Notes under the pieces: generated by a model
Seen by the model: only the letters and a program-made list of their open reading frames with translations
What the model was told of the DNA's origin: nothing
The model's database searches: none
DNA from: Anaerobacillus sp.
GTDB taxonomy: Bacteria; Bacillota; Bacilli; Bacillales_H; Anaerobacillaceae
DNA length: 6,121 bases
Assembly: GCA_007120055.1 (NCBI GenBank)
Contig: SKOL01000549.1
Coordinates: forward strand, 1 to 6,121
Reading direction: 5' to 3'
Shown: positions 1-6,121 of the stretch, one piece after another
Layout of the letters: each line of letters starts with the position of its first letter
How positions within the stretch are numbered: the stretch's first letter is position 1
Position numbers and translations under genes: made by a program

Positions 1-262
1 CAGTGTTTCTAAGTCGAATATTCATTTTGCAATGAATTATTTGAAAATGGAGGAAATTCCAGTTCTTTCATATGATGTTGGTGGTAAAGTCGGTAGAAAG
101 TTATATTTCGTCCCCGAAACTTTTGACGTATTTATTAAGAAAATTGGTCAAGAGGCAAGGTTAGCAGAAGCTGTCCGTGCCGAAGAAAGCTACTTACACC
201 AAATTAAACGATCAAGAGCCCAAAAAGCAAAATCTGCAGATAACTTAACCTTATTTGAGTGA
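1..262 (+). CDS. cheD: Chemoreceptor glutamine deamidase CheD, 3' part only
   Basis: The reading frame is open from base 2 and ends at TGA 260-262, giving the last 86 residues; the gene starts before the window. CheD deamidates receptor glutamines to glutamates and, in Bacillus, also works with CheC in adaptation. The recognisable part is the C-terminal CheD core: a helix (SNIHFAMNYLKMEEIPVL), the DVGGKVGRK motif at visible residues 25-33, and the final strands LYFVPETFDVFIKKIG. The family normally ends near this last strand. Here about 37 further residues follow, rich in charged residues and alanine (QEARLAEAVRAEESYLHQ, then KRSRAQKAK) and probably helical. The catalytic Cys and His lie in the missing N-terminal part, so activity cannot be judged. 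The internal ATG at 32 is not a start, because the homology continues upstream of it. cheB follows 43 bases downstream. The assignment rests on remembered family motifs. Confidence 0.87.
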   Translation, partial: SVSKSNIHFAMNYLKMEEIPVLSYDVGGKVGRKLYFVPETFDVFIKKIGQEARLAEAVRAEESYLHQIKRSRAQKAKSADNLTLFE

Positions 263-273
263 GATTACTCAAA
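254..273 (+). other. Small inverted repeat over the cheD stop codon
   Basis: TTTGAGT (254-260) and ACTCAAA (267-273) are perfect reverse complements separated by GAGATT. The stem is 7 bp, mostly A/T, and includes the first base of the cheD TGA stop. It could form a weak RNA hairpin between the two genes. No T-run follows, so it is not a convincing terminator, and it may have no function. Confidence 0.35.
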
Positions 274-295
274 ACTCAAAACTCGCAACTCGTAA
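268..295 (+). repeat. 7-bp tandem repeat, four copies, leading into the cheB RBS
   Basis: Four consecutive heptamers can be read: CTCAAAA (268-274), CTCAAAA (275-281), CTCGCAA (282-288) and CTCGTAA (289-295). The first two are identical; the last two differ from them at two positions each, and the last overlaps the first bases of the cheB Shine-Dalgarno sequence. The array fills most of the cheD-cheB gap. A 7-base unit is not a multiple of three, but this is non-coding if cheB starts at 306, so copy-number change would alter only the leader length. Confidence 0.7.
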
Positions 296-302
296 GGAGG
301 TG
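293..302 (+). promoter_or_regulatory. Strong RBS that fixes the cheB start at TTG 306
   Basis: TAAGGAGGTG is an uninterrupted 10-base complement to the 3' end of Bacillus-type 16S rRNA. AAGGAGG (294-300) ends 5 bases before TTG 306-308. This makes 306 the start rather than the in-frame TTG at 255, which overlaps the end of cheD, lacks such a site and would add 17 residues unlike the family. Confidence 0.88.
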
Positions 303-305
303 GTT

Positions 306-1373
306 TTGATAGGAAAGAAGATTAAAGTGTTAATTATTGATGATTCTGCTCTCGTCCGTGAATTATTAAAACGAATATTATCAAAAGATCAAGAAATTGA
401 AGTTGTCGGTTCAACTGTTGACCCGATTTATGCGATAAAAAAATTAAAAGAATTTAAGCCTGATGTCATTACGTTAGATTTAGAGATGCCAAGGATGGAT
501 GGTTTAACCTTTTTAAGAAAATTAATGGCGGTTATACCTACGCCTGTCATCATTATAAGTTCACGTGCTGAAAAAGGAAGTGAGATTTCTTTAAAAGCAT
601 TAGAATTAGGAGCTATAGATGTAGTTTTAAAGCCATCTGCAATGTTACAATCTTCACTTTTCGAAATTGAACAAGAGATCATTACTAAAGTGAAAAGTGC
701 TGCTAAAGTTAATATGACGGAGTTGAGGAAGCAAGCTAGGAAAAAGATAGCATCAAGAAACGAAGCAACTCCTGCGACAATTCAATTACTACAATCAAAC
801 ACAGATAAAATAATTGCGATCGGTGCTTCTACTGGAGGAACAGTTGCGATTAGATCCATATTAGAGCAATTACCAGCTAATTTACCAGGAATATTAATCG
901 TTCTGCATATGCCAGTAGGATTCACAAGTTCGTATGCCGATAGTTTAAATGCGTCTTGTAGATTAACAGTAAAAGAAGCGGTTAATGGTGAGTTGCTTCG
1001 AAAAGGGTTTGCTTACATAGCTCCAGGTGGAAAACATATTTTATTAAAGAAAAGTCATCAAAAAGGTTATTTTATCAGCCTTGAAGAAACACCACCTGTA
1101 AACCGTCATCGTCCTTCTGTAGATGTTTTGTTTTCATCTGTTACGAGAGAAGCAAAGAATAACTGCATTGGTGTAATACTAACTGGGATGGGGAATGACG
1201 GTGCCAACGGTTTAAAAGAAATGCACGACAATGGGGCATGGACAATTGCTCAAGATGAAAAAACATCGATCGTTCATGGAATGCCAAAACAAGCGATCAA
1301 ATTAGGGGCAGTTGATGAAGTTATCCCTTTGCAAGAAATGCCAAATGCAATCGTACAAGCATTACAAAAATAA
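306..1373 (+). CDS. cheB: Chemotaxis response regulator protein-glutamate methylesterase CheB
   Basis: This 355-residue cytoplasmic protein has the normal length for CheB, which hydrolyses methyl-glutamate esters on chemoreceptors and can also deamidate receptor glutamines; phosphorylation of its receiver by CheA activates it. Residues 5-120 form an intact receiver: acidic pair D12/D13, phospho-acceptor D58 in LDLEMPRMDG, S85/S86 after the fourth strand, and K109 in LKPS. A linker of about 45 residues precedes the methylesterase domain (about 167-355). The catalytic triad is complete: S175 in IGASTGG, H201 in VLHMP and D298 in TGMGNDG. Translation starts at TTG, placed by a near-perfect ribosome binding site, and this rarer start codon may lower expression. 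The gene lies between cheD and the receptor it presumably modifies. I see no missing key residue. Chemotaxis CheB and CheB of alternative chemosensory systems cannot be separated by sequence alone. Confidence 0.97.
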   Translation: MIGKKIKVLIIDDSALVRELLKRILSKDQEIEVVGSTVDPIYAIKKLKEFKPDVITLDLEMPRMDGLTFLRKLMAVIPTPVIIISSRAEKGSEISLKALELGAIDVVLKPSAMLQSSLFEIEQEIITKVKSAAKVNMTELRKQARKKIASRNEATPATIQLLQSNTDKIIAIGASTGGTVAIRSILEQLPANLPGILIVLHMPVGFTSSYADSLNASCRLTVKEAVNGELLRKGFAYIAPGGKHILLKKSHQKGYFISLEETPPVNRHRPSVDVLFSSVTREAKNNCIGVILTGMGNDGANGLKEMHDNGAWTIAQDEKTSIVHGMPKQAIKLGAVDEVIPLQEMPNAIVQALQK

Positions 1374-1421
1374 TCCATTGTAGAAAGAGAGCTAAAAGAA
1401 AATATATTGAAAAACCTTTCT

Positions 1422-1427
1422 AGGGAG
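1422..1427 (+). promoter_or_regulatory. RBS for the MCP gene
   Basis: AGGGAG lies 8 bases before ATG 1436-1438, a good spacing, though the match is weaker than the AAGGAGG sites of cheB and cheW. It is the only purine-rich candidate in the 62-base gap after cheB, which holds no other recognisable signal. Confidence 0.75.
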
Positions 1428-1435
1428 TTGAAGAT

Positions 1436-3520
1436 ATGAAAAAGAAATTTTCTTTAAATGTAAGTCTTAAAGTAAAAATGATAGGTCTATTTTTACTAGT
1501 AGGAATTCTTCCACTAATCGTTGTTAGCTTTTTAAATTATAACGCTGCAAGTAATAATGTTAGAGAAGAAATTTTAGCGAAAAATAATATGTATCAAGAA
1601 TTAGTTAGCTCAGAACTCGATGAGTATTTTGAATTTAGAAAAAGAAATGCTGAATTGTTAGCTGAAACACCAGGAGTTTATGAAAGCTTGCAAGTTCTAG
1701 ATGAACAAAATGGTGACACTACAAGCTCAGAGTGGTTGGAAAGAGAAGCGATATTATCGGAATTAGTCGCTTCAGCTGTAGAGAAGATGGACTACCTGTT
1801 AATGTATTTTACAGATGTAGAAGGAAACGTTGTTTATAGTGATTATCGCGATTTAATAGGTCAAAACATGTACGATCGTGAGTACATTCAACGTGCCGTT
1901 CAAGGTGAAAGCTACTGGTCAGCGTTGTTTCATTCAGGGGTTGTTAATGATAACGTTTTAGCAGTTGGTGCTCCAATTCGTGAAAATGGTCGTACTGGTA
2001 ATGTTATTGGGACATTAAGTGTCGTCGTAGACCAAGCGAGATTAGACGCTGTTGTTCATGCAGGACTTTCATCATTAGGGGAAACCGCAGATGCTTACTT
2101 AATCGACGCAGAAGGAACATTATTAACGAATACAATGTTTGGGGAGTATCGTTCGAATGCGGCATTAAATGAATCTATAAATACTGAAGCTGTAAGAATG
2201 CTCGGTCCGCAAGTACGCTCAGAAAATCATGCGTTTGCAGAGGCAGTTGAATATTTAGATTACGAAGGGGCACCTGTAATTGGGATGATCGGCGTCTTAA
2301 ATTTAGGTGATACTCCAGCAGGGTTGATAGTTGAAGTTTATCAGGAGGAAGCGTTTGCTGGGTTAGTTAGTATGAGAAATATGATTTTTATTATTGCGTT
2401 AATTGCGATTCCAATTATTGCTGTGGTAGGATTGTTTATTTCGCAAAGCCTTTCTAAGCCGATTAAAGAAACACAAGAGATTGTTAGCTTAATAGGTGAA
2501 AATGACTTTAGAGAAAAAGCTACCGTCTATACTAACGATGAAGTTGGTCAAATGGCGAAAGATTTAAATCAAACGATTGATAATTTATCAGAAACGATCT
2601 TCAGGGTAAGGAATGCCTCGGATACAGTTTCGCATGGTGCCGAAGAAATTGCTTCAGGTAACCAAGATTTATCACAACGTACCGAAGAGCAAGCATCGTC
2701 GTTAGAAGAAATTTCATCAACAATTGAAGAAATGACATCTTCATTAGAGGGCTCTGCAGCGAATGCCAATGAAGCCGATCACATTTCACAACAAACGATG
2801 GGTATCGTTCAATCTGGAGAAACGGTTGTTGTTGATTTACGTGAGGCAATGTCAGAAATCACAAAAGGAAGTAATGAAATTAGTGAAATAATTTCAACCG
2901 TAAATGATATCGCCTTCCAAACGAACTTACTAGCTTTAAATGCTGCCGTTGAAGCTGCAAGAGCAGGTGATCAAGGAAGAGGATTTGCTGTTGTTGCTGC
3001 GGAAGTTCGTAATCTTGCAGGCAGAAGTGCTGAAGCTGCAAAAGAAATTTCAAAGTTAATACAAGATAGCATCGTTCGAGTGGATAAAGGAAACGAGCTT
3101 ATGACCTCAACAGAGAAAGTTTTAAAGGAAATTGTTGAAAATACGCAACGAACAACAGATGTTGTTGGTGAAATCGCCGCGTCTTTAAAAGAACAGTCGA
3201 TGGCAGCTGGGGATATTCGCTCAGCTATTGAAGAGCTAAACCAAGTAACGCAGCAAAATGCTTCACTTGTTGAAGAGATTGCTAGCTCTAGTGAGAATAT
3301 GATGAGTGAATCTGTTGAATTGTCTAACTTAATCGGGGTATTTAAGCTAACTAATGATAAAGGTACCATAATGCAACCACAAAAAAAGTTAGTGAGCACA
3401 AATGCTATGAAAGAAAAGGATAAAGAGCCTTTACCGACACGCAAAAAACATCGTTCTGAACAAGAGACAAATCAAGAAGATGATTTTGACTTTAATGAAG
3501 ATGACTTTGAAAAGTTTTAA
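1436..3520 (+). CDS. Transmembrane methyl-accepting chemotaxis protein (dCache-like sensor, HAMP, MCP signal)
   Basis: A 694-residue chemoreceptor. A basic N-terminus is followed by TM1 (about 15-35), a large extracellular sensor (36-313), TM2 (about 316-337), HAMP (338-391, with P342 and the DEVGQM motif at 368-373) and a cytoplasmic signalling coiled coil (391-638). The sensor looks like a double Cache domain, with [10 protein letters not shown] then [10 protein letters not shown] in the distal half and [15 protein letters not shown] in the second half. The ligand is unknown, and I do not see the RxWY signature of amino-acid-binding dCache domains. The hairpin tip is [20 protein letters not shown] (492-511). 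Likely methylation pairs are E424/E425 and E431/E432, plus E613/E614 on the return helix. The return helix ends in GVFKL (634-638), followed by a charged linker of about 45 residues and an acidic-aromatic tail ending DFEKF. Tip and flanks align by eye without gaps to E. coli-type receptors. CheB and CheD upstream and CheW downstream fit this as the cluster's own receptor. Confidence 0.96.
3476..3511 (+). repeat. Imperfect 21-base direct repeat coding the MCP C-terminus
   Basis: GAAGATGATTTTGAC (3476-3490) recurs as GAAGATGACTTTGAA (3497-3511), offset by 21 bases and differing at two of 15 positions. In protein this is a 7-residue tandem pair, EDDFDFN (681-687) and EDDFEKF (688-694), which forms the extreme C-terminus. 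The second copy carries the pentapeptide-like end DFEKF. Confidence 0.7.
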
Positions 3521-3522
3521 AA

Positions 3523-3529
3523 AAGGAGG
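3523..3529 (+). promoter_or_regulatory. RBS that fixes the cheW start at ATG 3538
   Basis: AAGGAGG lies immediately after the MCP stop codon and 8 bases before ATG 3538. An in-frame GTG at 3532 would be only 2 bases from it, too close for initiation, so ATG 3538 is the start. Confidence 0.88.
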
Positions 3530-3537
3530 CAGTGCTC

Positions 3538-4134
3538 ATGAGTAGTAACCAACAATCCCATCCAATATTAAATCAACAGCTTATGAATGCGTCTCGGGAT
3601 AATCAATTTGTAACTTTTCAAGTTGGCGAAGAGTTTTATGGCATTGAAATTATGATCGTTCAAGAAATTATTCGTTATAAAAAACCAACGAGAGTGTTTA
3701 ATTCCCTCCCTGTGATTAAAGGTGTCATTAATTTCAGGGGGGATATTATCCCGATCATTGATATGAATATTAAATTTAAGTTGCCGCCTAAAGAGTATGA
3801 TGAATATACGGTCGTCATAGTTGTTGAAGTTAAAGGAAAGACGATGGGCATCATCGTAGATCGAATTTCTGATATTTTAACTTTTGAAAAAGAAGAAATT
3901 AAAGTCGTTGATAATGAGTTAGCTGAAGATATGAAAACAAACTATTTACGAGGGTTAGTTGATACTGACGACCGTGTTATAATGTTGTTAGACCCTTTTA
4001 AATTACTTACTTTTGATGAATTAAATCAAATCATCGAAATGAATGATAATGAAGCAGATAAAGACAAATCCGAAAATATAACTGCAATAAGAAGGACAGG
4101 GGGCGATGATAATGGAACAAATCAAAAATGGTAA
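3538..4134 (+). CDS. cheW: Chemotaxis coupling protein CheW
   Basis: CheW links the receptor tip to the P5 domain of the histidine kinase CheA in the cytoplasmic array. This protein has 198 residues; simple CheW proteins are usually about 140-170. The CheW fold spans about 22-166: QFVTFQVGEEFYGIEI (first strands), IKGVINFRGDIIPIID (60-75, with the conserved NxRG arginine at R67), MGIIVDRISDIL (103-114) and YLRGLVDTDDRVIMLLDPFKLL (136-157). There is no fused receiver domain, so this is CheW and not CheV. The extra length is a polar N-terminal segment of about 20 residues and a hydrophilic C-terminal tail (about 167-198, rich in D, E, N and K) that looks disordered. The last codons overlap the next gene, so the tail may partly reflect the need to hold that gene's start signals. 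It sits 17 bases after the MCP stop, consistent with matched receptor and coupler expression. Confidence 0.96.
   Translation: MSSNQQSHPILNQQLMNASRDNQFVTFQVGEEFYGIEIMIVQEIIRYKKPTRVFNSLPVIKGVINFRGDIIPIIDMNIKFKLPPKEYDEYTVVIVVEVKGKTMGIIVDRISDILTFEKEEIKVVDNELAEDMKTNYLRGLVDTDDRVIMLLDPFKLLTFDELNQIIEMNDNEADKDKSENITAIRRTGGDDNGTNQKW
4092..4103 (+). promoter_or_regulatory. RBS of the STAS gene, inside the end of cheW
   Basis: AAGGACAGGGGG carries two purine-rich stretches. AGGGGG (4098-4103) is 8 bases before ATG 4112 and 2 bases before ATG 4106. AAGGA (4092-4096) is 9 bases before ATG 4106. Either ATG is possible and they differ by two residues; I prefer 4112. Confidence 0.6.
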
Positions 4135-4420
4135 CGGAAAAGTGACATTAATCCCAGAAGGTAGAATTGATGTCGTTAATTCCCAAAACTTAAAACAAGA
4201 GTTATTAAATTTATACAATGACGGAGTTAAAGAAATTGTCATTGATTTTTCGAAGATTACTAGTATTGATAGTTCTGGGCTTGGAAAATTACTTCTGTTT
4301 CAAAAAAAGTTAAAAGAACGTGGTGGAGAATTACGAATTATTAATGTAACGAACGACTATATTCAAAATATGTTTAAAATGATCCATCTTAATAAAGTCA
4401 TTAAGATTGAAAATATGTAA
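4112..4420 (+). CDS. STAS-domain anti-sigma factor antagonist-like protein (SpoIIAA/RsbV type)
   Basis: A small cytoplasmic protein of 102 residues that is all STAS domain: VTLIPEGRIDVVNSQNLK (11-28), VKEIVIDFSKITSIDSSGLG (39-58) and ELRIINVTNDYIQNMFKMIHL (73-93). Antagonists of this family bind an anti-sigma kinase (SpoIIAB/RsbW) when unphosphorylated, and phosphorylation on a serine abolishes this. The expected site is S54 in the intact D-S-S-G-L-G motif (53-58). The start overlaps the end of cheW by 23 bases in another frame, implying translational coupling; ATG 4106 would add two residues. The next gene encodes a SpoIIE-type phosphatase, the enzyme class that dephosphorylates such proteins, so the two are a probable substrate-enzyme pair. 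No separate anti-sigma kinase or sigma gene is visible. Similar STAS proteins can also regulate non-sigma partners, so the target is open. Confidence 0.93.
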   Translation: MEQIKNGNGKVTLIPEGRIDVVNSQNLKQELLNLYNDGVKEIVIDFSKITSIDSSGLGKLLLFQKKLKERGGELRIINVTNDYIQNMFKMIHLNKVIKIENM

Positions 4421-4433
4421 ACACATTTCGGGC

Positions 4434-4440
4434 CGAGGAG
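4434..4440 (+). promoter_or_regulatory. RBS of the phosphatase gene
   Basis: CGAGGAG ends 8 bases before ATG 4449-4451 in the 28-base gap after the STAS gene. It supports ATG 4449 as the start. Confidence 0.75.
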
Positions 4441-4448
4441 CTTTTGAT

Positions 4449-6121
4449 ATGGAGGCAAACATAAAAGTATTAATTATTTGTAAGGATGAAGGAGAGAGTT
4501 GCCCCCTTCTGCAATTATTAAGTGAGGACAAAGCCATTATCTGTTCAACAATGACTAGTATCGGTGACGAGGTTTTGTACAATAATAATCTTGCGCCTTT
4601 TCTTTTGAAAAACGAGGTTGACACCATCATTTTATGTGATAGTTTTCAACAACTAAGTATTTTACAAACGATTAAACTGTTTAAAGAAAAAGATATATTA
4701 ATACCGATTATTGTAATTTCAAGTCGCAATGAAACTAGTTTAGCCGTCGAGGTTATGAAAGCTGGTGGAGAAAATTTTTTAGTAAGGAACGAATTATCTT
4801 CCAGTCGACTCATTGATACAGTTTATAGTGCCTTGCAATCACGGGAAGAGCAAAAACAGTTGAAAAAGGTTCGTATAGAAAACCAAAAACTTTCACAAAC
4901 AATCGAACAAAGTCCAGTATCTATCGTCATTACAGATGCCGAGACAAATAAAATTGAGTATGCGAACCCCATGTTCTCAAAGTTAACTGGATATTCTTTA
5001 CAAGAAGTGATCGGGGAATCTCCAAGTATTTTAAAGTCTGGTAAAAAAACAGCAAATGAGTACAAATACTTATGGGAAACGATTTTATCCGGATTGACAT
5101 GGAAGGGCGAGTTTGTTAACCGAAAAAAAGACGGTAGCCTTTATTGTGTAGCGGCAACGATAAGTCCGATTAAAATAAATAATAGTGAAACTACTCATTT
5201 TGTTGGTATTCATCAAGATATTAGTCAGCAAAAAAGAGCAGAACTAGATCTGAAAAGTTATGCAAGAAAGCTTGAAAATAAAAGTGAAGAACTTGAAAGT
5301 GCCTATGAATCTATTGAGGAAAATATTCAAAGGGCAAGAAGGCTGCACCGTCACTTTTTCCCTAATAGCTTTCCGGAAATGGAAGAAGTTCAACTTGACG
5401 CATTTTATGAACCTGCTGATAAAATTGGTAGTGATTATTACAACTTTGTTAAGATTAATAATCAACTAATTATTTACGTTGTAGACGTATCAGGCAGTGG
5501 TATTAGCGGGGCTTTTATTAATATTTTTATTCGACAAAAGATTAATCGGTTTCTTTATGTTGAAGAAGGAGTAGAACGTAAAAGAATCTCACCGAAAGAA
5601 ATGCTCAATTTTTTAGCAGAAGAGTTTCTGCAAGAAAATTTTCCAGAAGAATATTATATATGTTTTTACGTTTGTGTTTTAGATCTTGAAACGAAACAGT
5701 TAACGTACAGCAATGCTGGTATTCAAGTTCCACCTGCATTAATTAAAAACGGAGAGCTTGAATCGTTAACACTTGGTGGGCTCCCCATTAGTCGGATGAT
5801 TGATATTGAATTATTGAGCTATGAAGAAGAGACCGTTTTATTTGATGAAAACGCAACGCTTGTTATAGCGACTGACGGTCTTGTTGAAAGTGTTGAAAAT
5901 GGTAACGGTAATATGTACGGTATTGAGCGTTTTCAAGAAATAGTCCGTAATTATTACTTCTTACCACCGAAACAGTTAAAAAACGTGATTAATTCAGATA
6001 TTCAGCCGATTATCGATGCCGAGTATCCGAACGATGATATTACTTATGTCATTATTCAACAGAATTTTGAAGTAATTGATAAAAAACAGTTTATTTCTAA
6101 AAGTGATTGTAATGATGTTGA
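4449..6121 (+). CDS. Receiver-like/PAS/SpoIIE-type PP2C serine phosphatase, 3' end beyond the window
   Basis: The frame stays open to the window edge (557 complete codons). Residues 4-130 resemble a receiver fold (KVLIICKDE, VDTIILCD, IPIIVISSRNE, AGGENFLVRNEL), but the acidic pair is C11/K12, the phospho-acceptor position is C63 or a shifted D64, and the conserved lysine is R113. Residues about 150-262 are a PAS domain (IVITDAETNKIEYANPMFSK, GYSLQEVIGE, WKGEFVNRKKDGSLY, GIHQDISQQKRAE). A charged coiled coil (about 262-303) leads to a SpoIIE/RsbU phosphatase (about 296-538): ARRLHRHFFP, EPADKIGSDYYNF (320-333), VDVSGSG (345-351), ATDGLVE (474-480) and NDDITYVII (528-536). The metal-binding aspartates of the last three motifs are present. 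This enzyme class removes phosphate from the serine of STAS antagonists, and such a gene is immediately upstream. PAS or receiver input probably controls it. Sequence continues past the phosphatase fold, so a further domain may follow. Confidence 0.92.
   Translation, partial: MEANIKVLIICKDEGESCPLLQLLSEDKAIICSTMTSIGDEVLYNNNLAPFLLKNEVDTIILCDSFQQLSILQTIKLFKEKDILIPIIVISSRNETSLAVEVMKAGGENFLVRNELSSSRLIDTVYSALQSREEQKQLKKVRIENQKLSQTIEQSPVSIVITDAETNKIEYANPMFSKLTGYSLQEVIGESPSILKSGKKTANEYKYLWETILSGLTWKGEFVNRKKDGSLYCVAATISPIKINNSETTHFVGIHQDISQQKRAELDLKSYARKLENKSEELESAYESIEENIQRARRLHRHFFPNSFPEMEEVQLDAFYEPADKIGSDYYNFVKINNQLIIYVVDVSGSGISGAFINIFIRQKINRFLYVEEGVERKRISPKEMLNFLAEEFLQENFPEEYYICFYVCVLDLETKQLTYSNAGIQVPPALIKNGELESLTLGGLPISRMIDIELLSYEEETVLFDENATLVIATDGLVESVENGNGNMYGIERFQEIVRNYYFLPPKQLKNVINSDIQPIIDAEYPNDDITYVIIQQNFEVIDKKQFISKSDCNDV

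Follow-up and report, generated by a model that had tools for sequence, protein, structure and literature searches.

Does a chemoreceptor array set the state of a partner switch when the genes for both lie along a single operon? The question is raised by a 6,121-nucleotide stretch of DNA from Anaerobacillus sp. (contig SKOL01000549.1, positions 1 to 6,121 of the forward strand; hereafter the window), in which chemosensory genes run directly into a STAS antagonist gene, STAS2 (4112..4420, + strand; Pfam STAS 1.9e-14), and a gene for a predicted phosphatase/kinase (4449..6121, +). A first-pass annotation had proposed that receptor-CheA signalling changes the phosphorylation of the STAS serine. 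We find that Anaerobacillus probably has a second chemosensory operon, of which the window covers the distal half. Judged from gene content and residues, we favour, with moderate confidence, a reading in which this alternative chemosensory operon carries a partner switch of the CrsA/CrsR type that is not driven by receiver phosphorylation.

Gene content of the operon and its switch

The host of the window is Anaerobacillus or very near to it: A. arseniciselenatis DSM 15340 has the same block, with a phosphatase 96% identical to that of the window. In that genome (locus L009), the operon comprises a gene for a soluble protein resembling methyl-accepting chemotaxis proteins (MCPs), STAS1, cheY, cheA, cheR, cheD, cheB, a Cache receptor, cheW, STAS2 and the phosphatase/kinase. 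Both cheA and cheR, which the first-pass annotation had proposed to look for beyond the window, are present upstream, and the RsbW-like kinase that it also asked for exists as a domain fused to the phosphatase. A separate CheA, 31.8% identical to the operon CheA, is encoded elsewhere in A. arseniciselenatis, 2 kb from a 261-amino-acid sigma-factor match, and presumably belongs to the flagellar system. Such a separate CheA (33-39% identity) occurs in 7/7 genomes of the genus. With this second CheA elsewhere and the pair inside the operon, the view of the locus as an alternative chemosensory operon carrying a partner-switch pair holds up.

The window ends inside the last gene. Its match P0001, identical at 556/557 residues, has a full length of 673 amino acids and contains HATPase_c_2 (PF13581), which is also C-terminal in the A. 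arseniciselenatis copy. PP2C and HATPase domains with catalytic residues are carried on a single protein; by sequence, the predicted kinase and phosphatase are one. Its predicted layout is REC*-PAS-PP2C-(HATPase), where the degenerate receiver (REC*) covers residues 1-140 (4449..4868, +), the PP2C/SpoIIE phosphatase domain with conserved Asp residues spans 5313..6068 (+) and the HATPase part falls outside the window. STAS2 aligns with the SpoIIAA, RsbV and TM1442 structures. All ten aligned STAS2 proteins, that of the window included, contain the motif DSSG with its phosphorylatable Ser. As annotated, the putative phospho-serine is S54 (numbered from 4112), within D53-S54-S55-G56. At the other end of the operon, STAS1 (L009:1598-1867 and relatives), beside cheY and cheA, follows the motif Asp with a residue other than Ser in all 12 aligned sequences (Ala in 8, Gly in 2, Thr in 2); an Aeromonas counterpart does have Ser at this site.

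We propose a switch in which the HATPase domain would phosphorylate STAS2 at S54 and the PP2C domain would take the phosphate off. Without its phosphate, STAS2 would occupy this HATPase domain and so free a target, probably a sigma factor with its gene elsewhere. Placement in the operon would lead to co-expression of switch and array. Any coupling to CheA would run via phosphorylated CheY (CheY~P) contacting the pseudo-receiver, or via STAS1; otherwise the PAS domain would be the switch's own input.

The phosphatase receiver and the direction of signalling

The simplest wire from CheA to the switch would be the N-terminal receiver of the phosphatase/kinase. Residues 1-140 alternate strands and helices as receivers do, and the fold appears to be kept, because three of the 17 aligned family members (P0003, P0010 and P0020) have the Pfam receiver model among their listed matches. 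We nevertheless predict that this receiver is unable to accept phosphate. At the phospho-acceptor position, the end of strand 3 (Cys63), 14 of the 17 have Cys, and Ser, Thr and Asp occur once each. The acidic pair is replaced by Cys11/Lys12 in P0001, and the conserved receiver Lys occurs in a single member (P0020, which also has the acceptor Asp), with Arg113 in its place in the window protein. The A. arseniciselenatis copy scores 18.8 bits against Pfam Response_reg, where the cut-off is 30.2. The adjacent residue, Asp64, is kept in 11/17 and might just conceivably serve as an alternative acceptor.

Because the acceptor residues are gone, phosphorylation of the fused receiver by CheA is unlikely as the driver. 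The annotation's claim that CheA changes STAS phosphorylation thereby loses its simplest route, as the phosphatase receiver lacks the acceptor Asp and the pair persists where the chemosensory genes are absent (see below); CheA might act by another route, but the sequence does not point to one. We consider it unlikely, if worth weighing, that STAS2 phosphorylation is set, via the phosphatase, by receptor-CheA activity, which would in this way control a sigma factor. The retained receiver fold speaks for such a model, as do distant relatives in other Bacillota. Phosphatases with intact receivers lie inside chemosensory clusters in genomes G238 and G576, and the cluster at L144 encodes a REC-PAS-PP2C-HATPase protein with an intact receiver. 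This L144 protein and the stand-alone receiver-PP2C proteins encoded at L138 and L140 exceed the Pfam receiver cut-off and keep Asp and Lys. In S. oneidensis, moreover, the che1 cluster includes CrsR and CrsA, and PMC9855816 says of RpoS regulation that Che1 'could be' involved in it, a role proposed with CrsR/CrsA and unproven. Set against this are the loss of acceptor Asp, acidic pair and Lys in the window family and the like constraint on the pair where the chemosensory block is missing.

Signal could also run the other way, with the PAS-sensing phosphatase/kinase setting STAS2, which would act on the array or CheA, making the switch an input. Cluster phosphatases do bear sensors of their own: PAS here, and a membrane MASE3 sensor without a receiver in one phosphatase each of L135 (17615-19901) and L144 (13930-16251). 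Two papers are in keeping with this direction, one suggesting that a protein with REC, PP2C and kinase domains may act on a chemoreceptor by way of a STAS protein (PMC9239204), the other reporting that the STAS protein CheS of S. meliloti binds CheA (PMC12654446); the missing phospho-site Ser of STAS1 also fits. A. isosaccharinicus, however, retains the pair without this array, and we rate the reverse direction as quite improbable. Doubtful to a slightly greater degree is a specific form of it, in which sensing would rely on PAS (MASE3 in relatives), the receiver would be a mere docking domain and STAS2, whether phosphorylated or free, would together with the mostly unphosphorylatable STAS1 tune CheA or the receptors. 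If true, the flow from switch to array would be opposite to the accepted idea of Che1 acting on RpoS.

The chemosensory block and the pair occur apart

Downstream (3') of the operon in A. arseniciselenatis is arsA, on the opposite strand; upstream, a 98-amino-acid gene ("DUF98") and pcp share the operon's strand, and a Crp/Fnr-like gene farther out is in the opposite orientation (all named by inspection). Among seven Anaerobacillus genomes, the DUF98-arsA site holds the full operon in A. arseniciselenatis and IKA-2. In G005, which is 62% complete, chemosensory genes extend as far as cheD, where the contig ends. A. isosaccharinicus has STAS2 and the phosphatase only, and the remaining three genomes (G002, G003 and G006) have neither block nor pair. 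Genome-wide searches for the phosphatase, CheA and STAS2 agree with this survey. Since three of the seven sites are empty, a block of ~12 kb appears to come and go beside arsenic genes. Loci L097, L098 and L100 present the site without block or pair. A plasmid search with the phosphatase returned matches all below 60% identity, and 1/2346 records covers 80% of the query.

A. isosaccharinicus lacks this chemosensory system, because its genome, a single contig, is given as 100% complete and no CheA match in it exceeds 38% identity. Identity of its STAS2 to the three chemosensory-linked STAS2 proteins is 84-86%, against 85-97% among those three, and its phosphatase is 62-65% identical to two linked copies, themselves 64% identical. 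For STAS2 of A. isosaccharinicus versus the others, nonsynonymous divergence (dN) is 0.08-0.09, against a near-saturated synonymous divergence (dS) of 1.2-1.4. On these comparisons, the pair appears to be under like constraint in the absence of the chemosensory block. In a midpoint-rooted phosphatase tree, the A. isosaccharinicus protein falls in a group of six (support 96/95) with P0011, which is presumably chemosensory-linked; this grouping makes loss of the block in the A. isosaccharinicus line likelier than a late gain elsewhere. A tblastn search of its gap (L049 11001-12600) for chemosensory remnants gave, beyond STAS2, a best E of 0.077 for a 29-residue CheW piece, and remnants were dismissed. 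A scan for a promoter belonging to the pair in A. isosaccharinicus found none, a result that says little. The annotation had regarded poor conservation of the neighbourhood as counting against it, and this objection applies in part: the full operon does recur in IKA-2, and the halves do separate.

This separability in both directions is what would be expected if switch and chemosensory block merely shared transcription and a site beside ars genes, with no signal between them. The DUF98-arsA site, with neither in 3/7 genomes and the pair alone in 1/7, also fits. Mere co-location accords poorly with the recurrence of STAS and PP2C genes in this CheA clade across several Bacillota families, and with the same gene set in gammaproteobacteria, as described in PMC7184735. 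We consider it an unlikely explanation.

We also surveyed Bacillota more widely. A CheA match at E <=1e-140 occurred in 8/398 sampled genomes (44-58% identical, A. arseniciselenatis itself apart), and one order (13 genomes) added four more (41-53%); a further search of three genomes added no CheA clusters. Absence in this survey refers to the best 6, 3 or 2 candidates scored per genome. The closest CheA proteins include those of Desulfitispora, Desulfuribacillus, Natroniella, Fuchsiella and Natranaerofaba. G236 (L142) was left out of the cluster count, as its match was 46% over part of the protein (E 1.2e-101) but 36% over the full length and lay among flagellar genes. The 11 clusters outside Anaerobacillus have STAS1 in 10 cases and a STAS2-like gene in 7 (L139, a 5-kb contig, is uninformative). 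Kinase and phosphatase occur in four (L135, L138, L140 and L144), three of them with an intact receiver, and are separate genes in L138 and L140. Records from Aeromonas (MCP, receiver, STAS, cheA, MCP, cheW, MCP, cheR, cheD, cheB) and Xanthomonas (STAS, cheA) indicate that STAS genes adjoining cheA are not confined to this CheA clade. No F class was assigned to the operon CheA: it forms a clade of its own, and the E. coli F7 CheA, the only reference with a class label, falls outside that clade.

Several findings weigh against the preferred reading. Three of the 11 clusters (L136, L137 and L143) have STAS2 but show no phosphatase match within the stretch read. In Natranaerofaba (G290, L141), the same order starts with the soluble MCP-like gene and ends at cheW; other PP2C-HATPase proteins are encoded elsewhere in that genome. 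Taken with the pair-only site of A. isosaccharinicus, these cases make the association loose. The reading, too, draws on 17 sequences. Nor did a sigma-factor target emerge. Inspection of the stretches read on both sides of the A. arseniciselenatis operon showed no sigma factor gene, and the 18 sigma-factor matches in this genome all lie off the operon's 316-kb contig (C40). The annotation's idea of reaching a sigma factor by extending the neighbourhood thus turned up none linked to the operon in A. arseniciselenatis. Nor does any ordinary sigma factor track the pair, since matches of SigA, SigB and SigF size occur in 7/7 genomes; these names were assigned by size and place, with a model test for SigB of A. 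arseniciselenatis only. That genome has an RsbW-SigB pair elsewhere, above NCBIfam cut-offs (L102). A search by co-occurrence for a dedicated target led nowhere; Sigma70_r2 matches number at least 11-33 per genome, many of them of the size of extracytoplasmic function (ECF) factors, and the comparison covered the ordinary sigma factors.

Known relatives and remaining features of the window

The first-pass annotation held that the STAS and phosphatase arrangement differs from known ones. This is contradicted by the nearly matching gene set in Ortega 2020 (PMC7184735) and by CrsA/CrsR in S. oneidensis che1; the arrangement itself is already known in other bacteria. In the gammaproteobacterial stage 1 F7 clusters of Ortega 2020, a serine phosphatase gene accompanies two STAS genes, and the paper calls the function of their arrays yet unknown. 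L009 and its IKA-2 counterpart, L050, share with these clusters the order STAS, cheY, cheA, cheR, cheD, cheB, receptor, second STAS and serine phosphatase. Stage 1 F7 clusters are described as having, between cheA and cheR, an aer2-like receptor gene together with two genes resembling cheW. By contrast, cheR directly follows cheA in L009 and L050, a single cheW lies after the receptor and before STAS2, a soluble MCP-like gene heads the operon and no aer2-like gene lies inside.

S. oneidensis Che1 (F7) resembles the operon in its cheA, cheY, cheW, cheR, cheD and cheB, two MCPs, one STAS antagonist and a receiver-PP2C-kinase protein, as far as its description goes. Unlike Che1, the Anaerobacillus system has a degenerate receiver, an inserted PAS domain, a second STAS before cheY/cheA and a Bacillota host. 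P. aeruginosa HsbR/HsbA likewise combine a receiver-PP2C-kinase protein with a STAS partner, and receiver, phosphatase and kinase domains are reported as common to HsbR and CrsR (PMC6482189); the HsbR receiver, however, is described as the HptB target, whereas that of Anaerobacillus is degenerate. The three biochemical roles of RsbU, RsbV and RsbW in SigB control are presumably the same here, with STAS2 aligning with RsbV and SpoIIAA, but the kinase is fused to the phosphatase and no sigma factor gene is adjacent. Unlike in Rv1364c of Mycobacterium tuberculosis, STAS is a separate gene, in a chemosensory operon. STAS1 resembles CheS as a small STAS protein beside cheY/cheA, a likeness of position only. 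PMC8396549, PMC10390336 and PMC10703414 provided background. Among the papers listed in searches of the open-licence PMC literature, judged by titles and the starts of abstracts, none deals with this Anaerobacillus operon.

What appears new is a Bacillota variant with a fused kinase, an inserted PAS domain and a predicted dead receiver, whose module has been taken apart both ways. It bears on the role of stage-1 F7-like arrays and their possible action on sigma factors via partner switches. Anaerobacillus offers a pair without an array and a predicted dead receiver, and its distant relatives arrays without the pair and intact receivers, so that comparison and in vitro work could both test how the coupling is wired and in which direction it runs.

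Smaller features of the operon include its first gene (L009:17-1585), which recurs in the CheA clade and encodes a soluble protein whose MCP-signalling match is weak, below the Pfam cut-off. The cheY gene of A. arseniciselenatis DSM 15340 (L009:1870-2250) is interrupted in the deposited record, its open part running from 1966; CheY is 126 amino acids and in frame throughout in G005 and IKA-2. IKA-2 carries a second PAS-PP2C-HATPase gene (L050:16479-18455) before the soluble MCP-like gene, its product sharing 36% identity with the first across 424 residues. Another PP2C-like frame in A. arseniciselenatis (L011:7644-8417, contig C10) has an in-frame TAA inside the wider match.

Within the window, Pfam places all six annotated genes as described, on a single strand. 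The 3' part of the deamidase gene cheD (2..262, +; Pfam CheD 2.8e-10; 199 amino acids when whole in A. arseniciselenatis) is followed by cheB, for a receiver plus methylesterase (306..1373, +; CheB_methylest 6e-65, Response_reg 1.2e-22, scanned from 315), with a TTG start preceded by AAGGAGG. Next are a membrane dCache-HAMP-MCPsignal chemoreceptor (1436..3520, +; Pfam) and cheW (3538..4134, +; ATG at 3538, alternative GTG at 3532; Pfam CheW 7.2e-35). No terminator was found between the window genes, the single terminator-like site being on the - strand, and 17 promoter-like sites against a shuffle mean of 19.8 represent no excess. The annotated overlap of 23 bases between cheW and STAS2 was reproduced with the STAS2 start at 4112 (29 with 4106), as was the 28-base spacing from STAS2 to the phosphatase gene. 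The window cheW extends beyond the end of the A. arseniciselenatis gene (183 amino acids there) through 4076-4134, and this longer reading is the sole cause of the overlap. Gaps replace the overlap in A. arseniciselenatis (24-30 bases) and IKA-2 (13). Between STAS2 and the phosphatase gene, A. arseniciselenatis has 28 bases, IKA-2 94 and A. isosaccharinicus 20. Tight spacing is conserved; the overlap of 23 bases is peculiar to the window.

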